Shown piece after piece: positions 15,867-41,526 of a DNA stretch of 64,000 nucleotides. The notes below the pieces were generated by a model. The model did not search any database. It was not told where the DNA came from and was given only the letters and a program-made list of their open reading frames with translations. The stretch comes from Peptococcaceae bacterium BRH_c4b (lineage in GTDB: Bacteria; Bacillota; Desulfotomaculia; Desulfotomaculales; Desulfocucumaceae), in assembly GCA_000961595.1 (NCBI GenBank), contig LADO01000025.1, positions 1-64,000 on the forward strand, written 5' to 3'. Position 1 is the stretch's first letter; every line of letters starts with the position of its first letter. The position numbers and the translations under genes are program-made.

Positions 15867-16068
15867 ACAGCCGGATGTCGCATTGATCCCTTGTGGTAAG
15901 GTGAAAAACAATTTTCAATTTGCTCCGGTACAGTAACACAGTGCAATACAATGGAATATTATAGAAAAAAAGGAAGGGTGAGGCACCAGGCACTGTAAAT
16001 GTTAACAACCCGCACGGGACCTCTCAGTGTAAAAACAGCAAGATTAAATTATATCGGAGGAATTTTGG

Positions 16069-16575
16069 ATGGAAACTAAAGATATTCTTTTGGAAGACAT
16101 ATGTAAAATTGCAAAAAAGATCAAACCTAATTCAAGAATGACACACGGCTACACTGATGGCGGTAGAGGCTTTGTGGAAGAAAGCCTTTTTGCTTTTACC
16201 AAGGCAGGATCATTCTGGGTCGTTGTACTTTGTGAAACAGGCAGAGTTGCTTTTAAAAAGGTAACGCCGGAGTGGATTCAGATATTTTCCAATTTAGTCC
16301 TCTCTTCTCCGGAAGTGTTTGTGGTATTTGACAGAAAGCACCATATCGTTGAATGGGCGGTTGCGCAGGATAAAGTCTGTCCTTTAATCAAGGATAAGTC
16401 CAAGGAAAAACCAAAAGAGCCACCCAATGACCACAAAGACCCCAAGGACCCCAAGGACCCCAAGGATCACAAAGACCCCAAAGACCACAAGGATCACAAA
16501 GACCCCAAAGACCCCAAAGACCCCAAAGACCACAAGGACTGCAAGGATCACAAGGACTGCAAGCTTCACAAATAA
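16069..16575 (+). CDS. Basic/acidic KDP/KDH-repeat protein
   Basis: A 168-residue protein in two parts. Residues 1-~110 form a compact domain with 'SFWVVVLCETGRVAFKKV', 'LSSPEVFVVFDRKHHIVEWAV'. The same fold is recognisable in the product at 41627 ('YWYIVTYTNEYAFKKV', 'SSKIFVAWNDKHRITYWLAV'). From residue ~121 to the end comes a strict triplet repeat, Lys-Asp-Pro or Lys-Asp-His, about 15 units, ending in KDCKDHKDCKLHK. Such a zwitterionic repeat, with His and Cys at the tip, could bind metal or crosslink in a coat; that is inference. The start is fixed by GGAGG at 16056-16060. I do not know the family. Confidence 0.8.
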   Translation: METKDILLEDICKIAKKIKPNSRMTHGYTDGGRGFVEESLFAFTKAGSFWVVVLCETGRVAFKKVTPEWIQIFSNLVLSSPEVFVVFDRKHHIVEWAVAQDKVCPLIKDKSKEKPKEPPNDHKDPKDPKDPKDHKDPKDHKDHKDPKDPKDPKDHKDCKDHKDCKLHK

Positions 16576-16705: not shown

Positions 16706-16808
16706 TAAATACGCCGTGCACAGTTAACTGTCGATCTGAATACATTAATAAGAAATATCCAAATATTAGGTGGGGTTTTTATTTTTTTGTCAGATGGGAT
16801 AATGATAA

Positions 16809-17771
16809 ATGAGCGAAATAGGATTAATTGGCTGTGGTTCTTGGGGTTTTAATTACCTGAAAACACTGGTTTCAATTCCCGGAGCAACAATATTGTATGT
16901 ATGTGATTTAAAAGAGCAAATATTGGATAATGTCAAACTGTTGTATCCCCACCTGAGAGTCACTAACCGTTATCAGGATTTATTGGAAGACGACAAAGTA
17001 AGAGGCGTAATCATTGCTACTCCTCCAGAATCACATTTTTCCCTGGCGGCGAAATTTCTGGCCGGGAAAAAGGCTGTACTGGTGGAGAAACCGGTTACCT
17101 ACCGTTACCGGGAAGCGGAAGAACTGATTCAACTGGCCCGTAAGAACAATACTATTTTAATGGCGGGCCACCTTATGGAATACCACCCGGCGGTATTGAA
17201 ATTACAGGATTGCATAAGCAAAGGCCTGCTGGGTGATTTGAGGTACATCCTGCTGGAAAGGGCCAACCTGGGAAAAGTGCGTAATGATGTCAGTGTGCTC
17301 CGGGATCTGGCCGTACACGACCTTTCCATAGTAAGGCGACTGGTTGACCGGGAGCCCCTGTGGGTGTCCGCCCAGGGAGGATATTTCTTACAAGATGGCC
17401 TGTGTGATATGGCGACAATAACCATGGGTTTTACTGGAAATTTGTTGGCGCAGATCCATGTGAACTGGCTGTACCCGGTAAAAAAGAGGCAGGTGGCGGT
17501 GGCCGGGAATAGGATGATGGCCTTCTGGGACGACGCCGGGGTGGATGTTAAATTGCAGTTTGTATCCTACAATGAGGCCAGAATTATGACTGAAATTGAT
17601 AATACCCCTCCACTGACCTGCCAGTGCCTGCATTTTTTCAATTGTATCAATACCAAAACTGAGCCGCAAACCGGTTTGCATGATATTTCATGGGTTATGA
17701 AGGTTTTAGATTTAACCGAGCAATCTTTATTTAGCAACGGTGCAAGATTGTATTTTAGGCATGACAGGTGA
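16809..17771 (+). CDS. Gfo/Idh/MocA-family oxidoreductase (GnnA/WlbA-like candidate)
   Basis: A 320-residue NAD(P)-dependent sugar oxidoreductase: Rossmann loop 'IGLIGCGSWGFNYLKTL', 'GVIIATPPESHFSLA', the catalytic 'VLVEKPVTYRYREAEEL', and 'MAGHLMEYHPAV'. Enzymes of this class oxidise the 3-hydroxyl of UDP-GlcNAc (GnnA) or UDP-GlcNAcA (WbpB/WlbA) ahead of transamination. The DegT aminotransferase at 19633 in the same run makes such a role plausible, though substrate is not proven by sequence. It overlaps the next gene by 4 bases and begins an eight-gene co-directional run to 24300. Confidence 0.8.
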   Translation: MSEIGLIGCGSWGFNYLKTLVSIPGATILYVCDLKEQILDNVKLLYPHLRVTNRYQDLLEDDKVRGVIIATPPESHFSLAAKFLAGKKAVLVEKPVTYRYREAEELIQLARKNNTILMAGHLMEYHPAVLKLQDCISKGLLGDLRYILLERANLGKVRNDVSVLRDLAVHDLSIVRRLVDREPLWVSAQGGYFLQDGLCDMATITMGFTGNLLAQIHVNWLYPVKKRQVAVAGNRMMAFWDDAGVDVKLQFVSYNEARIMTEIDNTPPLTCQCLHFFNCINTKTEPQTGLHDISWVMKVLDLTEQSLFSNGARLYFRHDR

Positions 17772-18742
17772 CGACGGTGAAGGTGATAAATTATACTGAT
17801 TCAGATTTTGACCAATGGGATGAATTTGTGAGAAATTCCAGAAACGGCACCATTATGCAGGAACGCAGGTTTATCGGTTACCATGGTGCTGAACGGTTCG
17901 AGGACTGCTCTTTGATGTTTTACGATGCGCGGGATAAGCTGACGGCGGTAATGCCCGCAGCAGTGAAAAAAACAACGGAAAAAATTTTTTGTTCCCACCC
18001 GGGGCTCTCACACGGGGGAGTAGTAGTTAATCACGGTTTTGGTACCAGCGAGGCCCTATCGCTTGCCCAAACACTGGTCGAAAACTGCAGGTCCGGAGGT
18101 TTTAAAGCCATTGAGATTAAACCGGTACCCCGCATATACCAGCATTGGCCCTGTGACGAGATAGATTTTGCCTTAAGGTATTGTGGCTTTATGCCGGTTT
18201 ACACTGAACTGGCCACGGTACTTCCGCTTGGGGAGATAACGACGGAAAATTATTTTATGTCCAGGACAGCCAGAAGGAATGCCAAAAAAGCTGAAAACGC
18301 TGGAGTAAGAGTAAGGGAAAGTGTTGATTTTGCAACATACTGGAGCATACTTGAGGCAAATCTCGACCAGCGGCATGGCGCCAGGCCCACCCATACCCTG
18401 GAGGAAATAAAGGAGTTAACACGCAGGTACCCTGAGCATATCAAGCTTGTAGCTGCTTTTTACCAGGAGACAATGATTTCCGGGGTGGTGGTGTTTTTGC
18501 TCAACAGCAGGGTGAGCAATTGCTTTTATATTGCCCAGGATTACGACTACCAGCAGTTTCGGCCTTTAAACCTTGTTTTTTATCAGTTAATCAACTGGGG
18601 TATTAAAAAAGGTTACCATTATCTGGACTGGGGCATATCCACGGAAAATAAGGGTAAGTTGGTCAATTACGGACTGTTCAGATTTAAAGAGGAATTTGGC
18701 GGGCGAGGCGTGTTAAGGGAAACCTACAGGCTGGGATTATGA
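17768..18742 (+). CDS. GNAT/FemAB-like acyl- or aminoacyl-transferase
   Basis: A 324-residue protein of the BioF2/FemAB-like GNAT superfamily. 'FMSRTARRNAKKAENAGVRV' and 'CFYIAQDYDYQQFRPLNLVFY' followed by 'GYHYLDWGISTENKGKLVNY' match the C-terminal acyl-CoA or tRNA-binding half of the family. It could N-acylate an amino sugar or attach an amino acid. It starts at GTG overlapping the stop of the oxidoreductase gene, so the two are cotranslated. Placed between GnnA-like and LpxC-like genes, an amino-sugar N-acyltransferase is a reasonable inference. Confidence 0.7.
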   Translation: MTTVKVINYTDSDFDQWDEFVRNSRNGTIMQERRFIGYHGAERFEDCSLMFYDARDKLTAVMPAAVKKTTEKIFCSHPGLSHGGVVVNHGFGTSEALSLAQTLVENCRSGGFKAIEIKPVPRIYQHWPCDEIDFALRYCGFMPVYTELATVLPLGEITTENYFMSRTARRNAKKAENAGVRVRESVDFATYWSILEANLDQRHGARPTHTLEEIKELTRRYPEHIKLVAAFYQETMISGVVVFLLNSRVSNCFYIAQDYDYQQFRPLNLVFYQLINWGIKKGYHYLDWGISTENKGKLVNYGLFRFKEEFGGRGVLRETYRLGL

Positions 18743-18784
18743 TTATGCCGGGAGCGGTGGCATCAGGAGGGGTGGTGGTGATCC

Positions 18785-19618
18785 CTGCAAAAGACAATAA
18801 AAAAGCCGGTGAGCATTAGTGGTAGAGATATTACCGGTAAGGGCTATAGTAATGTAACTTTCATACCGGCCCCGCCAGGCAGCGGCATAATGTTTGTCCG
18901 GGACGACCTGCCCGGGCAGCCTCGTCTGGAATGCCGGCCGGAATACGCCCGGACGGACTTTCGCTGGACATCACTGATAAAGGACGGTATTCGCGTCGAC
19001 CATACGGAGCACATCCTGGCCGCAGTGGCAGGGCTGGGCATCGACAATATCACCATTCATGCAGATAGCCAGTACCTGCCGGTGGTTACCGGCTTCAGCA
19101 GCAAAGGATTTGTAGACGCCATCCTGGAGACGGAAACGGTAGGCCAGGAAAAGCCAAAGGATTATATTTCCATCAGGAGACCCTGCTGGGTGCTGGATTC
19201 ATTTACATTGGGAGCTGAACGCTATGACAGCATTCTACTGGCCTTGCCGGCTGGAGAATTGACACTGACCTATCTGCTGGATTATCCGGGCAGGCAAGCC
19301 TTTACACAAACGGCCTGCTTTACTTTTGACGGAAACGGTGATTTTGCGGTGGAACTGGCGCCTGCCCGGTCGTATGTCATGGATTTTGAATGCAGCAGCG
19401 TCAGGGAATTAATCGGCAGGGGCATGGAGGAGTGCCTGGTATTGTCCGAAGGGTCGTTGCCACTGCAGTGGGATAATGAACCGGCCAGGCACAAGCTGCT
19501 GGATATGCTGGGTGATTTGGCCACCCTTGGTCAGCCCGTAAAAGGTCATTTCATTGGCATAAGAACAGGGCATAGATCCAACATCCGGATGTGCAAAAAA
19601 CTGGCCAAAGAGTTGTAA
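18785..19618 (+). CDS. LpxC-like N-deacetylase (UDP-acyl-GlcNAc deacetylase homologue)
   Basis: About 277 residues, homologous along its length to LpxC, the zinc deacetylase of lipid A synthesis. 'DHTEHILAAVAGLGIDNITI' matches the Glu-His zinc/substrate motif, 'PARHKLLDMLGDLATLG' carries the other two zinc ligands (H and D of HKLLD), and 'RTGHRSN' matches the general-base His region. The LpxC-typical beginning 'KTIKKPVSISGRDITGKG' extends upstream of GTG 18809 to a CTG at 18785, 12 bases after GGAGGGG (18766-18772), so I place the start there; GTG 18809 is the alternative. It lies between an acyltransferase and an aminotransferase gene. No other lpx gene is visible. Confidence 0.82.
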   Translation: MQKTIKKPVSISGRDITGKGYSNVTFIPAPPGSGIMFVRDDLPGQPRLECRPEYARTDFRWTSLIKDGIRVDHTEHILAAVAGLGIDNITIHADSQYLPVVTGFSSKGFVDAILETETVGQEKPKDYISIRRPCWVLDSFTLGAERYDSILLALPAGELTLTYLLDYPGRQAFTQTACFTFDGNGDFAVELAPARSYVMDFECSSVRELIGRGMEECLVLSEGSLPLQWDNEPARHKLLDMLGDLATLGQPVKGHFIGIRTGHRSNIRMCKKLAKEL

Positions 19619-19632
19619 GGGAGGGCTGAATT

Positions 19633-20709
19633 TTGATCCCCCAGGTAAAGCCACAGTTAGGCAGGGAAGAGGAAGAGGCTGTTCTGGAGGTGTTGCGCAG
19701 CGGCATGCTGGCGGCGGGGCGGCAGGTGCGGGAATTTGAAGAAAAATTTTGCGCCTACAATAACTCCCGTTTTGCTGTTGCCACTTCCTCCGGGACAACG
19801 GCACTGCACGTAATGATGGAAGCGGTGGGCATAAGGCCCGGAGACAAGGTGTTTGTTACCCCCTATTCCTTTATTGCCTCGGCCAACGCCATATTATATA
19901 CCGGGGCCATCCCCGTTTTTGTGGATATAGATCCGGCTACCTTCAACCTGTCTTATCAAGAGTTGGAGCATGCCGCTAAAAAGCACCCCGATGCGAAAGC
20001 CATACTGGTTGTGCATCTTTTTGGGCTGCCTGCGGATATGTTGGAAATTGTAGAGCTGGCCCATAAACAGAACCTTATCCTGCTGGAGGACTGTGCCCAG
20101 GCTACGGGGGCTGCTTACCGCGGGGTGAAGGTGGGCAATTTCGGAAAGGCAGCGGCCTTCAGTTTTTATCCCACCAAAAATATGACTTCGGGGGAGGGCG
20201 GTATGGTGGTAACGGGTGATCCCGCCGCGGAAGAAAAGGCGAGGATACTGGTAAACCAGGGCCAGCGCCGCCGCTATGACCACGAAGTGGTGGGCTATAA
20301 TTACCGCCTGAGCAACATACATGCGGCCATTGGGCTGGCTCAACTGGGCAAGCTGGACGAATTTAACCGTATTAGGGTGGAAAACGCCATGTATTATCAG
20401 CAGCGGATTAATAACCCGGAGGTAATAAAACCAGGCCTGCCGGCGGACAGGACCCATGTTTTTAACCAGTATACCGTCAGGGTTAAAGACAGGGAAAAGT
20501 TTACCAGCTATTTGACCGCCAGAGATATAGGTTTCGGGATTTACTACCCCCAAATCATTCCGGCCCAAAAACCGTACCGGGACAATCATGCCGGCGCCTG
20601 GCCCGCTGCAGAAAAACTATCGGAAAGTTGCGTGTCCATACCTGTGCACCCGTCCCTGCGGCGGGATGAGGTTATGTTTATAGCTGATGCCATAAACAAT
20701 TATGGTTGA
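19633..20709 (+). CDS. DegT/DnrJ/EryC1 PLP aminotransferase (GnnB/WbpE-like candidate)
   Basis: A 358-residue sugar aminotransferase that would convert a keto-sugar nucleotide to an amino sugar with glutamate as donor. 'SGTTALHVMMEAVGI', 'FVTPYSFIASANAI', 'LEDCAQATGAAY' (Asp contacting PLP) and 'FSFYPTKNMTSGEGGMVVT' (Schiff-base Lys) are intact. It starts at TTG behind GGGAGGG. With the Gfo/Idh oxidoreductase at 16809 it forms the two-enzyme set known from 3-amino sugar synthesis (GnnA/GnnB or WbpB/WbpE). Position specificity is inferred. Confidence 0.87.
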   Translation: MIPQVKPQLGREEEEAVLEVLRSGMLAAGRQVREFEEKFCAYNNSRFAVATSSGTTALHVMMEAVGIRPGDKVFVTPYSFIASANAILYTGAIPVFVDIDPATFNLSYQELEHAAKKHPDAKAILVVHLFGLPADMLEIVELAHKQNLILLEDCAQATGAAYRGVKVGNFGKAAAFSFYPTKNMTSGEGGMVVTGDPAAEEKARILVNQGQRRRYDHEVVGYNYRLSNIHAAIGLAQLGKLDEFNRIRVENAMYYQQRINNPEVIKPGLPADRTHVFNQYTVRVKDREKFTSYLTARDIGFGIYYPQIIPAQKPYRDNHAGAWPAAEKLSESCVSIPVHPSLRRDEVMFIADAINNYG

Positions 20710-20733: not shown

Positions 20734-21423
20734 TTGATAATTTCCGGCCATCAACCGAACTACCTGCCCTGGCTGGGATATTTTCATAAAATGAAGTCCT
20801 GCGATCTCTTTGTAATCCTTGATGACGTGGTTCACTCCAGAAGAGCCATAACCAGCAGAAATAAAATCAAGGGGCCCGAAGGGGCAAGGCTTTTGAGTGT
20901 CCCCATGACCAGGAAAGATGTCACTATCAAGGATGTTGTTATGTTTAATGAGAGCAGGTGGTACAAAAAGCACTGGGGATCCTTGCAGGGATGTTATACC
21001 AGGGCTACATACTGGAAGGATTACAGGGACTGTTTTTACCATATGTATAATGCTCCGGGGGAAAAACTGGCCGATTTTAATTTAAGGCTGATTGAATTAA
21101 TCAGGGAAATTTTTGATATCAAGACGCCGGTGGTACGCTCATCGGAAACCCCCGGGATTACGGGTAAGAAGGGGACCAAGATTATTAACATTTGCAAATA
21201 TTTCGGTGCCGACACATATTTGTCGGGAAACGGTGCCCGCGTCTATAACGACGCAAGTGAATTTGCCAGGAACAACCTGCGCCTGGTTTACCAGGATTTC
21301 GAGCATCCCGTGTACCCCCAGTTATGGGGCAGTTTTGTACCTAACCTGTCTGCCGTGGATCTTATTTTCAACTGTGGCCCGGAAAGTAAAATATATTTAC
21401 CCAAACAGGTGGTTTATGAGTAA
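20734..21423 (+). CDS. WbqC-like family protein, copy 1
   Basis: A 229-residue protein of the WbqC-like family, found in glycan clusters but without a firmly known reaction. 'ISGHQPNYLPWLGYFHKM' and 'DLFVILDDVVHSRRAI' are the family signature, and 'NAPGEKLADFNLRLIELI' follows. The start is TTG 20734, 11 bases after AAGGAGG; an out-of-frame ATG lies at 20727. It overlaps the ATP-grasp gene at 21416 by 8 bases. A close paralogue lies at 23614. Confidence 0.82.
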   Translation: MIISGHQPNYLPWLGYFHKMKSCDLFVILDDVVHSRRAITSRNKIKGPEGARLLSVPMTRKDVTIKDVVMFNESRWYKKHWGSLQGCYTRATYWKDYRDCFYHMYNAPGEKLADFNLRLIELIREIFDIKTPVVRSSETPGITGKKGTKIINICKYFGADTYLSGNGARVYNDASEFARNNLRLVYQDFEHPVYPQLWGSFVPNLSAVDLIFNCGPESKIYLPKQVVYE

Positions 21424-22444
21424 GTTAAATGTTTTGATTACGGGGTCCGGCTCCCTTTACGGGGTGGCGCTAATTAAATCCCTGCTGCAGTCTGACCTGA
21501 GGCCGAAGCTGGTGGCCTGCGACGTGGAACCCCGCACCCTGGGCCTGTATCTTGCGCACCGGGGTTATATAGTGCCCCCGGCCGCTCCGGAAGAGCGCTA
21601 CTACAGCACTATAATCAATATTATGAGCAGGGAGAAAATTGACGCTGTATTTATCGCCTCCTCCCACGAAATAGAGTTTTACAGTAACCACCGGGGGGAG
21701 ATAGAGAGGACAACAGGAGCCAGGGTGTTTGTAAACCCACCCGCCGTGCTGAATATTTGTAACGACAAATGGCATACCGTAAATTTTTTAAAACAACATA
21801 ATTTCCATTATCCCCTCACTATACGCTATCCCGAAGACCGGCACCGGATAAACGATTTTGTCCGGGAGGCGGGATTTCCGGTAATAGTTAAACCCCGCCG
21901 GGGGGCCGGATCCATAGATCTGTACAGGGCGGACGACATGGCCGGACTGCGTGCAGTCGTGCGGGGCAGGGAAGGTTTTATCCTGCAGCAATACCTCCCG
22001 GAAGCGCACGGTGAATATACCACCGGCATTTGTGCGGGTTCCGGCGGCAGAGTCCTCTCCGGCATTACCCTGAAAAGGTTTCTCCGGGAGGGTATGACCA
22101 TGGCGGCAGTGGCGGATGACTTTCACGAAATTACAGATTACTGCAAGCAGGTGGCGGGAGTATTAAGGCCTTATGGGCCCTGTAATTTCCAGTTGCGCCT
22201 GCTGGACGGAAAGCCCTATATATTTGAAATCAACCCCCGTTTCAGCAGTAGTACGGGTATGCGGTGCCAGTTGGGTTTAAACGAGGCTGATATTCTACTG
22301 CGAGCTGAAATACTGGGGGAGAAAGTTAGCGGGCAAAAGATCCTGAAGGCCGGCATAATCAGGCAGTACAAAGATTATCTGGTATCCGTCGAGCAAATCG
22401 AGCAGATGGAAAGAGAGAAATTCCGCGTTAACAGGCAGGATTGA
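21416..22444 (+). CDS. ATP-grasp carboxylate-amine ligase-like enzyme
   Basis: A 342-residue ATP-grasp protein: 'VLITGSGSLYGVALIKSL' at the N-terminus (pre-ATP-grasp Rossmann), 'CNDKWHTVNFLKQHNF', 'FPVIVKPRRGAGSIDL' (ATP-binding Lys/Gly region), 'PCNFQLRLLDGKPYIFEINPRFSSSTGM' with the metal-binding Glu-Asn. It should ligate a carboxylate to an amine using ATP. With amino-sugar genes next to it, an amide or peptide decoration of a sugar is plausible. ATG 21416 overlaps the end of wbqC copy 1; the frame is open further upstream but lies inside that gene. Confidence 0.82.
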   Translation: MSKLNVLITGSGSLYGVALIKSLLQSDLRPKLVACDVEPRTLGLYLAHRGYIVPPAAPEERYYSTIINIMSREKIDAVFIASSHEIEFYSNHRGEIERTTGARVFVNPPAVLNICNDKWHTVNFLKQHNFHYPLTIRYPEDRHRINDFVREAGFPVIVKPRRGAGSIDLYRADDMAGLRAVVRGREGFILQQYLPEAHGEYTTGICAGSGGRVLSGITLKRFLREGMTMAAVADDFHEITDYCKQVAGVLRPYGPCNFQLRLLDGKPYIFEINPRFSSSTGMRCQLGLNEADILLRAEILGEKVSGQKILKAGIIRQYKDYLVSVEQIEQMEREKFRVNRQD

Positions 22445-22573: not shown

Positions 22574-23557
22574 ATGAAAATTATATTTATTGATTCCGAT
22601 CCTCAATATTTGCTCGGGTTACCCTGGGGCCTTAAAAAATTGGGCTGTAAGGTAAAAATTATAAAGGAGATTCAGGAAGACAGGCTGGCGGCAATTTTTA
22701 AAAAGTATCAGCCTGACCTTGTTTTTACCGCCGGCTGGACAAAAATACACACCAGGTCAAATCTTGAATTGCTGGGCAATTTGCTAAAGAAGTACAGGCT
22801 TAAACACGCCTACTGGGCTACGGAGGACCCCCGCTGGACAGACAGCTGGTCACTGCCTTTCATAAAATCCTCATGCCCGGACTACATTTTTACTATCCAC
22901 AGAGAATCGGTACCCATGTACAGGGATCTTGGCCACCGGGCCTATTATCTTCCCTGGGCCTGCAATCCCGATTTTCACCGCCCCGCTGCGCCGCAGCGGG
23001 AATATAGCTGCGACATTGCGCTGGTGGCCACGGCCGGGGTGACCTGGAGTTCTTACCGCAGGGACAGTGCCCGCATTTTACTGAAACCTTTGGTGGAAAG
23101 AAATTATAACGTTTTAATCTGGGGCAAGCGATGGGATAGGCTGGACCCAGGGATTGTCGGTTTTGACGTTGCGGCTGATCATTTGCGCGGCAGGCTACCC
23201 TACCAGGAAACCAACCGTGTATACGGATCCGCCAAAATAATGCTGGGTTTTCAAAACCTGACCACGGAACTGACGTCACGTAACTTTGAAATTCTGGGCG
23301 CCCGGGGGTTTATGCTGGTGCCGGCCACCGAAGCGCTTTTGCATGAATTCAGGCCGGGAAAACACCTGGTGGTTTCCCGATCCGAAGAGGAAACTCTGAG
23401 ACTGGTGGATTACTACCTGGAGCACGAGGAGGAAAGGAAGCAAATAGCCCTGCAGGGGCAGAGGGAAGTATACACGAGACACACATACAGACACAGGGCA
23501 TTGGAAGTGCTGAAAGCCATCAGTAAATTGAAATTTACGCCATCAACCCGCCTGTGA
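22574..23557 (+). CDS. CgeB-like glycosyltransferase
   Basis: A 327-residue GT-B-type protein like the CgeB/Glyco_trans_1_2 family. 'DLVFTAGWTKIH', 'KHAYWATEDPRWTDSW', 'LPWACNPDFHRP', 'TSRNFEILGARGFMLVP' and a C-terminal 'YTRHTYRHRALEVL' are typical. In Bacillus, CgeB is made late in sporulation and affects the outer spore surface; that is family knowledge. It sits between the ATP-grasp gene and a second wbqC-like gene, separated from the former by 129 bases containing short AAGTC/GTCAAA repeats. Confidence 0.85.
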   Translation: MKIIFIDSDPQYLLGLPWGLKKLGCKVKIIKEIQEDRLAAIFKKYQPDLVFTAGWTKIHTRSNLELLGNLLKKYRLKHAYWATEDPRWTDSWSLPFIKSSCPDYIFTIHRESVPMYRDLGHRAYYLPWACNPDFHRPAAPQREYSCDIALVATAGVTWSSYRRDSARILLKPLVERNYNVLIWGKRWDRLDPGIVGFDVAADHLRGRLPYQETNRVYGSAKIMLGFQNLTTELTSRNFEILGARGFMLVPATEALLHEFRPGKHLVVSRSEEETLRLVDYYLEHEEERKQIALQGQREVYTRHTYRHRALEVLKAISKLKFTPSTRL

Positions 23558-23613: not shown

Positions 23614-24300
23614 TTGATAATTTCCGGCCATCAACCAAACTACCTGCCCTGGCTGGGATATTTTCATAAAATGAAATCCTGCGACCTTTTTGTAATACTT
23701 GATGATGTTCTTCATTCCAGGGGAGCAATTACCAATAAAAACAAGATTAAGGGGCCGGAAGGCGCCAGGCTGTTAAGCGTTCCGCTGGCCCAAAAAAAAG
23801 TACAGATCAAGGATGTTACCATTCTGAACAACAACAGGTGGAATTCAAAGCACAGGAGTTCACTGCAGTCCTGTTACGCCAGGGCGCCTTACTGGAAGGA
23901 CTATAAGGATTTGTTTCTGACTGTCTATGACAGCCCCGGTGATTTGCTTGCCGAATTTAATCTGAGGTTGATTCAGGTAATCAGGAAAATATTAAATATA
24001 GATACGCCCATGGTGCGGTCTTCGGAAATTTCCGGGGTTACCGGCAAAAAGGGTACAAAGATAATCAACATATGCAGGCATTTTGGTGCAGATGTTTGCC
24101 TGTCGGGAACCGGAGCCCGTGATTACAATGATGAGGAAGAGTTCAAGAGGAATAATCTGAGGCTGGTTTACCAGGAGTTTAAAAATCCTCAATACCCCCA
24201 GCTGTGGGGTGACTTTATACCCAACCTGTCCGCAGTGGATTTGATTTTTAATTGCGGGCCCGCCAGTGTGAATTATCTCCCCAAACAGTTGATTAGATAG
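23614..24300 (+). CDS. WbqC-like family protein, copy 2
   Basis: A 228-residue paralogue of the product at 20734 with the same 'SGHQPNYLPWLGYFHKMKS' start and 'DAVDLIFNCG'-type ending. It starts at TTG 23614 behind GAGGAGG. It is the last gene of the co-directional run from 16809. The two copies flank the ATP-grasp and CgeB-like genes, so each may act on a different substrate in the same pathway. Confidence 0.82.
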   Translation: MIISGHQPNYLPWLGYFHKMKSCDLFVILDDVLHSRGAITNKNKIKGPEGARLLSVPLAQKKVQIKDVTILNNNRWNSKHRSSLQSCYARAPYWKDYKDLFLTVYDSPGDLLAEFNLRLIQVIRKILNIDTPMVRSSEISGVTGKKGTKIINICRHFGADVCLSGTGARDYNDEEEFKRNNLRLVYQEFKNPQYPQLWGDFIPNLSAVDLIFNCGPASVNYLPKQLIR

Positions 24301-39839: not shown

Positions 39840-40499
39840 ATGCCCATTGTAAGATTAGCGAGTGTTCCGGGCAATACCTTTTTCCGGCTGGGTGCGCCGC
39901 CATACTTGGCGGCTAATGTCGCGGTGCCGGTGGGAATTCAATTTCCCTTCTGGCCGCAGATAGCCGATGTGTCTTCAGTAAGCGCCGGGGACCTGGGCGT
40001 TGCTCAGTATCTCTGGTACCTCAATGCAGTTAATCCAGCCCTGGTGGCCACCGGGGAAACGATTTTCTTCGCCCGGGAGGTAAATATTGTTGTTCCAATA
40101 TTGGCAGTAGCCATTACCAACACCATTAGCGTGAAAATAGCCACGGATAATGCTTTCCAGGCCAGAATGACCGTCACCCCGACTCCTGTTGGAGCGCCTG
40201 TAATCTTTAATTTCAACGATGGCATTACGGCCCAGAATTTTGCCGATCCGGGACCACCCTTTAACTGGCAGAAGATCTACAACTTCACTGTGGAAATGCC
40301 CCTGGCAATTGGAGCAACCGGCTTTAATCTTGAGTTCGAGGTCAAGACGGTTAATTACGCCCAGACCGGCGGCACCCAGTTTACCAACACCGCCGGACTA
40401 ATTTATGACATTGAAATTGGTGGTTTCCTGGCTGCTCCCATTCTCCCCCCCACTTTAGCCGAGGTTCAACCGCCAACCATCACGAACCCGCTGGCTTAA
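39840..40499 (+). CDS. Surface/coat-like protein, distant homologue of the 5' tandem family
   Basis: A 219-residue protein sharing the architecture of the three products at 21-2208: 'KIATDNAFQARM' (ADNAF block), 'FNWQKIYNFTVEM' (FGWQNVY block), 'LEFEVKTVNYAQ...FTNTAGLIYDIEI' (DFRGKVSNYA...NTAG block). Overall identity is low but order and spacing are kept. No signal peptide; a Pro-rich tail follows. AAGGAGG at 39825-39831 fixes the ATG. It is flanked by tRNA-Gly and a Cys/Thr/Pro-rich protein, outside the glycosyltransferase run. I infer a structural role in an outer layer. Confidence 0.75.
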   Translation: MPIVRLASVPGNTFFRLGAPPYLAANVAVPVGIQFPFWPQIADVSSVSAGDLGVAQYLWYLNAVNPALVATGETIFFAREVNIVVPILAVAITNTISVKIATDNAFQARMTVTPTPVGAPVIFNFNDGITAQNFADPGPPFNWQKIYNFTVEMPLAIGATGFNLEFEVKTVNYAQTGGTQFTNTAGLIYDIEIGGFLAAPILPPTLAEVQPPTITNPLA

Positions 40500-40806: not shown

Positions 40807-41526
40807 ATGGCAAATAGTACCGACCTCGTTGTTTTTGAGCAGTGTGTGCAGAAGTTGGCGGAGGCGCGGATTACCATCGCGGCGATAAATGATGTAACCG
40901 GCCTGGGCATCACTGTAAATCCGGTTACCGGTGAGGTAACCGCAGTGGTTGGAGGGGTTGTTGTTCCGATTGACTTTGAATTTTGCTGCGTGGTTAACAG
41001 AGCAGTTTTCAGCCCTACCCTGCTTACGGGTAAGATTATCAACTGCGGCTGGGTTAACGGAGCTATTCTGATCAGGAATCTGGATACCGGCATGGTCCTT
41101 ACCTGCCTGAATGTCGCGCTTACTTTCCAGGATGAGGTGGTGGCCGTAAGCGTGTTACCCAGCGACACAATTACCGAGCAGGTTGCCGGTGATGAGGGTT
41201 CGGCCATTTGTATAGTATTTAGTACCAATACCTTTACCGCTATAACTGAACCTGTACTGATAGTTAAGTGTGTTATACTGGTCTTGATAACAGTGATGCG
41301 CGGCGTATCAGTTATCTGCCCGACCACCCAATGTCCGACGACCTGTCCGCCAACCACCCAAGCTCCGACCACTTGTCCACCAACTTGTCCTCCGACCACC
41401 ATGGCGCCGACTACTTGTTGTCCTCCGACCACTATGGCGCCGATTTCTTGTCCGCCCACCTGCCTTACTGCACAGACCCAAAGCTCGTGCACAGCTGGTT
41501 CCAGTACGGTTAAAATTTTCCTGTAG
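40807..41526 (+). CDS. Cys/Thr/Pro-rich tail protein (coat-like)
   Basis: A 239-residue protein of unknown family. Residues 1-~170 are hydrophobic and beta-rich with scattered Cys ('GVVVPIDFEFCCVVNRAVF', 'IINCGWVNGAILIRNL', 'LIVKCVILVLITVMRG'). From ~172 comes a low-complexity tail of CPPTT/TCPPT/APTT units carrying about a dozen Cys, then 'SSCTAGSSTVKIFL'. The Thr-rich tail is a likely O-glycosylation site and the Cys a likely crosslinking site, as in exosporium or coat proteins; this is inference. AAGGAG 40792-40797 fixes the start. Confidence 0.75.
   Translation: MANSTDLVVFEQCVQKLAEARITIAAINDVTGLGITVNPVTGEVTAVVGGVVVPIDFEFCCVVNRAVFSPTLLTGKIINCGWVNGAILIRNLDTGMVLTCLNVALTFQDEVVAVSVLPSDTITEQVAGDEGSAICIVFSTNTFTAITEPVLIVKCVILVLITVMRGVSVICPTTQCPTTCPPTTQAPTTCPPTCPPTTMAPTTCCPPTTMAPISCPPTCLTAQTQSSCTAGSSTVKIFL

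Follow-up and report, generated by a model that had tools for sequence, protein, structure and literature searches.

The deacetylase LpxC, a key enzyme in the making of lipid A (endotoxin), is a target of antibiotics and has been taken as a marker of lipopolysaccharide (LPS) outer membranes. For amide-linked lipid A, as in Mesorhizobium, the enzymes GnnA and GnnB convert uridine diphosphate N-acetylglucosamine (UDP-GlcNAc) to its 3-amino derivative UDP-GlcNAc3N. The main text of Choi et al. (2024; PMC11448272) describes lpxC as a singleton in two bacteria, strain DCMF and Desulfotomaculum acetoxidans, and interprets it as what may be left of a paralogous lpxC2 region. Here, we analyzed a stretch of 64,000 nucleotides (the window; positions 1 to 64,000 of contig LADO01000025.1) from Peptococcaceae bacterium BRH_c4b, in which an LpxC homologue, here called LpxC2, belongs to a set of seven genes that also encode a 3-dehydrogenase, a FemAB-type transferase, a DUF3880 glycosyltransferase, a DegT aminotransferase, a WbqC protein and an ATP-grasp protein. 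This LpxC relative is accompanied by enzymes that modify sugars or form amides, and the promoter in front of them is of a sporulation type; the product of the operon is therefore probably an uncommon amino sugar destined for the spore surface. More specifically, we propose, with a confidence somewhat short of even, an undescribed, Bacillota-wide sporulation pathway in which LpxC chemistry, amination of the GnnA/GnnB type and a BshC-like WbqC ligase would together furnish the spore surface with a 2,3-diamino sugar that carries an aminoacyl group.

All genes of the operon lie on the forward strand. The first encodes an oxidoreductase of the Gfo/Idh/MocA family (Gfo; 16809–17771; PF01408, 3.3e-19), predicted to serve as a UDP-GlcNAc-type 3-dehydrogenase in a GnnA-like role, and is followed by a FemAB-type GNAT transferase that is a predicted N-(amino)acyltransferase (17768–18742; PF02388, 1.6e-9; PF13480, 3.8e-9), the LpxC-family zinc deacetylase LpxC2 (18785–19618; PF03331, 2.4e-54) and a DegT/DnrJ/EryC1 aminotransferase with a TTG start and a putative GnnB-like role (19633–20709; PF01041, 2.8e-113). 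These matches agree with a preliminary description of the locus, which had named the same four genes at 16809–20709 and taken them for a single overlapping run; they are co-directional, but the sole overlap is that of 4 bp between Gfo and FemAB, with gaps of 42 nt between FemAB and LpxC2 and 14 nt between LpxC2 and DegT. Downstream follow a WbqC family protein with a predicted HUP fold like that of BshC and class I aminoacyl-tRNA synthetases (20734–21423; PF08889, 3.2e-71), an ATP-grasp protein of the carbamoyl-phosphate-synthase-like type PRK12767 that is a predicted amide ligase (21416–22444; NF009402, 303.8 bits, cut-off 218), the glycosyltransferase with DUF3880 and Glyco_trans_1_2 domains (22574–23557; PF13524, 9.3e-30; PF12996, 6.3e-16) and a further WbqC that shares 73% identity with the first and is present in Desulfocucumis too (23614–24300; PF08889, 9.6e-74). 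The start codon of LpxC2 is probably the CTG at 18785, with a GTG at 18809 as the alternative: the N-terminus common to its relatives (LQKTIKKPVS in the window) begins at this CTG, 24 nt 5' of the first GTG, and the conserved start MQKTIKxx opens with CTG in the window and in Desulfocucumis palustris, with ATG in most relatives and with GTG or TTG in others.

A survey of relatives showed that the four-gene block recurs, as part of a larger set of seven genes that includes WbqC, ATP-grasp and the DUF3880 glycosyltransferase and is widespread in spore-formers. LpxC scored above the cut-off in 11 of 113 Desulfotomaculales genomes. At nine of these 11 loci, the genes stand alone in the order Gfo-FemAB-glycosyltransferase-LpxC-DegT-WbqC-ATP-grasp within otherwise unrelated neighborhoods; the two rearranged loci are the window and Desulfocucumis, where the glycosyltransferase, which in most relatives lies between FemAB and LpxC, has moved downstream and WbqC is duplicated. 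A twelfth genome of the order (G056, locus L023) has only decayed fragments of the operon (Gfo, glycosyltransferase, LpxC and ATP-grasp), and a close relative of it carries the operon intact. A scan with a profile of FemAB, run over 84,980 species, yielded 33 loci, nearly all with the whole gene set, from Desulfotomaculales, Sporomusa, Propionispora, Candidatus Formimonas, Clostridium, Anaerosolibacter, Bacillus/Neobacillus and metagenome-assembled genomes of Clostridia. The 33 also include one record labelled Calditrichales bacterium MX18-03 (L039), which has a Clostridia-like operon and promoter and is probably mislabelled or transferred. The carriers are endospore-forming bacteria, mostly without an LPS outer membrane, and most operon copies lie outside polysaccharide loci. 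The pairwise distances of LpxC, FemAB, glycosyltransferase, WbqC and ATP-grasp correlate with r = 0.91–0.97 across 14 genomes, so these five core genes have evolved together. Bacillus operons have, in place of both Gfo and DegT, a divergently transcribed pair that is 23% and 37% identical to the proteins of the other carriers. On the strength of conservation and synteny, we rejected the view that LpxC2 is a pseudogene or a remnant.

When 51 LpxC sequences were placed in a tree, the 22 encoded in operons fell on one side of a branch with a support of 100/99. Sporomusa and Propionispora possess both canonical LpxC and LpxC2, the latter occurring in only five of 150 genomes of the class that holds these two genera, and in a wider sample of the phylum most LpxC matches outside Desulfotomaculales score far higher, like canonical LpxC. 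The zinc ligands (H79, H238 and D242) and catalytic residues (E78, H265 and K239; E. coli numbering) by which LpxC membership was judged are kept, together with D246, in all 22 LpxC2 proteins. The LpxC2 of the window has its full set of zinc and general-base residues (E75, H76, H236, D240 and H263), as had been noted at the outset; the PF03331 score of 185 bits, against a gathering threshold of 27, places the protein within the LpxC fold family, and its AlphaFold2 model (predicted local distance difference test, pLDDT, 92.8) has a template-modeling (TM) score of 0.89 to Pseudomonas aeruginosa LpxC. The acyl-tunnel region is altered when set against the reference fatty-acyl tunnel residues, which include I198, C207 and G210-S211-F212 (PMC11472313): across the 22 sequences, the stretch 205–207 is deleted, G210 is replaced by K, N, E, R or Q, C/A63 has become Trp and I198 is mostly Tyr or another residue. 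Position T191 is Ser in 22/22 LpxC2 and Thr in 29/29 canonical LpxC. As the tunnel residues are not conserved, a lipid-A-like acylated substrate is unlikely for this enzyme; LpxC2 would instead be a working N-deacetylase for a sugar whose 3-substituent is something other than a long fatty acid.

The host genome (3.62 Mb in 66 contigs, 100% complete) encodes one LpxC homologue only. Genome-wide Pfam searches, for which control genomes gave the expected reactions, detected no LpxB, LpxD, LpxK or Omp85 (LpxA, KdsA and KdtA were not part of this genome-wide search), which extends to the whole genome the lack of lpxB and lpxD first seen in the window and speaks against lipid A or an outer membrane of the Negativicutes type in this organism. 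The idea of a pathway that stands by itself, apart from lipid A, in a Bacillota genome of the monoderm type is supported, with Gfo and DegT resembling GnnA and GnnB and with an LpxC that keeps its catalytic residues.

Promoters recognized by sigma-E and sigma-K have a common −10 element and distinct −35 elements (ATA versus AC, with AC marking sigma-K; PMC3789822). A sigma-K-like element, AC-N17-AATACATTA, lies on the forward strand of the window at 16720–16747, 89 to 62 nt 5' of the Gfo start codon, and the pattern AC-N17-nATAnnnTA precedes the operon in the lineages of Bacillus, Sporomusaceae, Desulforamulus, Desulfotomaculales f5 and f6, and Clostridium. Spotted by eye first and counted afterwards, it occurs in 25 of 38 operon upstream regions versus 13 of 268 control regions drawn from the operon loci themselves, and a spacing of 17 is the sole peak. 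When all dinucleotides were scanned at all spacings in 21 representatives, AC at 17 was found in 16, against a shuffled maximum of 7. SigK-like sigma factors are encoded in each of the 14 carriers tested. A promoter of the sigma-G type, considered on account of TGAATA near the Clostridium elements, was rejected by eye, as its spacing to the −10 is too long and other lineages lack TGAATA.

Similar elements occur elsewhere in the window and in the carrier genomes. Directly 5' of the operon, a repeat-rich open reading frame (16069–16575) that ends in a DHKDPKDPKDH repeat is preceded on the forward strand by AC-N17-AATATTATA (15936–15963), and its homologue at the corresponding place in Desulfocucumis (L024) has such an element as well. 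AC-N17-CATAnnnTA elements stand upstream of 39840–40499 and 40807–41526, whose proteins may be spore-surface components; these two frames and that at 21–2208 had no Pfam match where tested and include tandem near-copies (MALVHTDYV..., MPIVRLAS... and MANSTD...). The elements before 16069, 39840 and 40807 suggest a wider sporulation-expressed surface island in the window. Possible further sporulation genes with AC-N17-CATAnnnTA lie near the operon in two other Desulfotomaculales (L015:2928-3533, L019:3569-4195 and L019:4338-5357). The host genome has two sigK-like genes (G000:C63:29000-35000, L144; G000:C50:9385-10038), of which one is intact (334 bits) and the other is split in halves by a skin-like element of ~3.2 kb that codes for a 489-aa protein resembling a large serine recombinase; a split sigK is seen in several other carriers too.

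The reactions that the operon may catalyze can be sketched from the families of its enzymes. Amination of a UDP-GlcNAc-type sugar by Gfo and DegT is suggested by family resemblance and by the joint replacement of the pair in Bacillus. For every operon Gfo tested, the best NCBIfam model is that of UDP-GlcNAc 3-dehydrogenase (NF040723), which is also the best match of the Bacillus replacement (191–207 bits, cut-off 450), and the relatives of DegT in the PDB include the C3-aminotransferases QdtB and WbpE. The acylation steps are predicted from the chemistry of the FemAB, WbqC and ATP-grasp families. The FemAB-type profile matches an aminoacyl-tRNA-dependent peptide synthase (9wqw, 8e-6), and the AlphaFold2 model of WbqC (pLDDT 90.3) ranks BshC (4wbd) as its best structural match (Z 14.0, root-mean-square deviation 3.4, 220/229 residues), followed by class I lysyl-tRNA synthetase (Z 12.3) and with all others at 8.9 or below. 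In a glucosamine conjugate that has been deacetylated, BshC joins cysteine to the amine (PMC5372718); a WbqC with such an activity would fit a deacetylase partner. A sequence search of the PDB with WbqC gave nothing useful, the glycosyltransferase profile found no solved relative there, and the literature search returned no publication on WbqC function.

On this basis, we give about equal weight for and against to the reading that the operon is expressed in the mother cell during sporulation, under sigma-K or a close relative, and makes an N-acylated 2,3-diamino sugar and transfers it to a spore-surface glycan. In such a pathway, C3 of UDP-GlcNAc would be oxidized by Gfo and then aminated by DegT to give UDP-2-acetamido-3-amino-glucose, the 3-amine of which would receive a non-fatty acyl or aminoacyl group, most likely from the FemAB-type enzyme. 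LpxC2, with its conserved catalytic residues, could then remove the 2-N-acetyl group by the ordinary LpxC zinc mechanism, after which the freed amine may be re-acylated by WbqC, with its BshC-like fold, and/or by the ATP-grasp enzyme, and the finished sugar would be transferred by the DUF3880 glycosyltransferase. The promoter and the occurrence of carriers in spore-forming lineages point to the spore as the putative target.

Several observations weigh against parts of this proposal. LpxC2 scores 125.9 bits, below the TIGR00325 equivalog cut-off of 187.25, and the Gfo of the window reaches 149 bits against the cut-off of 450 of NF040723, though this is its best model. Six Clostridium operons lack DegT, two of which (G121 and G123) keep a stretch of 27 residues that is 93–96% like the DegT C-terminus; a search of the DegT-less Clostridium for a substitute gave just paralogues of at most 46% identity and fragments like the last 27 DegT residues. 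Since DegT has been lost from several Clostridium operons, either a paralogue supplies the amino step or the step is not always needed. The profile-profile comparison of WbqC with 23 BshC proteins gave no sequence signal (hhalign probability 0.3%), nor did Foldseek alone give a significant match for the model, and the likeness of WbqC to BshC is for this reason one of fold. The −10 element mostly opens with A (A or T) and not with the consensus C, strict CATAnnnTA occurring in one of 38 upstream regions, and these 38 regions are kin, so that the counts are not independent; for both reasons, the assignment of the operon promoter to sigma-K is probable and not proven.

Among the alternatives, we regard a vegetative role as unlikely, though the least so; the modified amino sugar made by the operon would then belong to a surface polymer of vegetative cells (a capsule, an S-layer glycan or a teichoic-acid-like polymer) and have no part in spores. 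The operons of the window and of Propionispora do sit in a glycan island with glycosyltransferases and genes of the deoxythymidine diphosphate (dTDP)-rhamnose type, and because spore-formers abound among the lineages sampled, the co-occurrence of operon and sporulation is by itself weak evidence. The AC-N17-nATAnnnTA element is nevertheless kept across lineages, and most of the operon copies are stand-alone and distant from polysaccharide loci, both of which speak against this reading. A product made in sporulation could also be a small diffusible amino-sugar conjugate, similar to bacillithiol or to an antibiotic, and not the decoration of a polymer. That a deacetylase and a BshC-like protein parallel bacillithiol synthesis, that together with ATP-grasp and one glycosyltransferase they form a compact biosynthetic set, and that the operon itself has no flippase or polymerase would all suit such a compound. 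It is made improbable, however, by a conserved gene set without an export or resistance gene and by a glycosyltransferase of the DUF3880/Glyco_trans_1_2 type, enzymes that are commonly tied to surface glycosylation.

The suggestion made for lone lpxC genes in the main text of Choi et al. (2024), that of a vestige of an ancestral LPS outer membrane in monoderm Bacillota, appears very improbable for LpxC2. It draws on the occurrence of a lone lpxC in bacteria without LPS (PMC11448272), with which a host genome without LpxB, LpxD and LpxK and the presence of decayed operon fragments alone in G056 are consistent. Against it, LpxC2 forms a deep separate clade that occurs alongside canonical LpxC in Sporomusa and Propionispora, is found in Bacillus too, retains all catalytic residues and has diverged together with its operon partners. 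If a conserved and apparently functional group of LpxC proteins does serve sporulation, the presence of a lone lpxC in a member of the Bacillota would by itself be no evidence of LPS or of outer-membrane loss, and LpxC chemistry would be at work outside lipid A; this would further indicate a new spore-surface sugar, and the hitherto uncharacterized WbqC family would gain its first predicted activity, that of a ligase. The question is testable, as culturable carriers exist in Desulforamulus aeronauticus, Neobacillus cucumis, Sporomusa and Clostridium spp.

Among the described systems, the lpxC2 region of Choi et al. (2024; PMC11448272) is the same gene: D. acetoxidans and strain DCMF (Candidatus Formimonas warabiya, L045) carry the LpxC2 of the operon, whereas the main text of that study describes no operon, promoter or pathway. 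The earlier view that nothing of the kind was described in Firmicutes thus fails for the paralogue and holds for the operon and its function: in the literature searched, which did not extend to the supplement of that study (Figs S5-S6), we found neither these nor the spread to Clostridium and Bacillus, the sporulation promoter, the tunnel changes or the likeness of WbqC to BshC. With the UDP-3-O-acyl-GlcNAc deacetylase of lipid A synthesis (PF03331, TIGR00325), LpxC2 shares the fold and all zinc and general-base residues, and it differs by an xITG-type motif in place of GLH[ST]G, by Ser in place of T191, by a shorter acyl-tunnel segment, by its separate clade and, in monoderm carriers, by the lack of LpxB, LpxD and LpxK.

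Like GnnA and GnnB, the operon pairs a Gfo/Idh oxidoreductase with a DegT aminotransferase, and its nearest model is a UDP-GlcNAc 3-dehydrogenase; unlike them, the pair stands outside lipid A, with no LpxA or LpxD acyltransferase nearby and scores below the equivalog cut-offs, and is accompanied by FemAB, WbqC and ATP-grasp. The bacillithiol pathway (BshA, the deacetylase BshB and the ligase BshC) follows the same logic of GlcNAc N-deacetylation and subsequent amide formation on the amine, and the WbqC model resembles BshC. The operon departs from it in that its deacetylase is of the LpxC type and not BshB, its WbqC falls far short of BshC in length and shows no significant similarity to it in sequence, and it comprises seven genes with a sporulation-type promoter. 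To our knowledge, the sps and cge operons of Bacillus subtilis, which are sigma-K-dependent spore surface glycan genes, include no LpxC, FemAB or WbqC; they have the sporulation-type promoter in common with the operon, and CgeB is, like the glycosyltransferase of the operon, an enzyme of the DUF3880/Glyco_trans_1_2 type.

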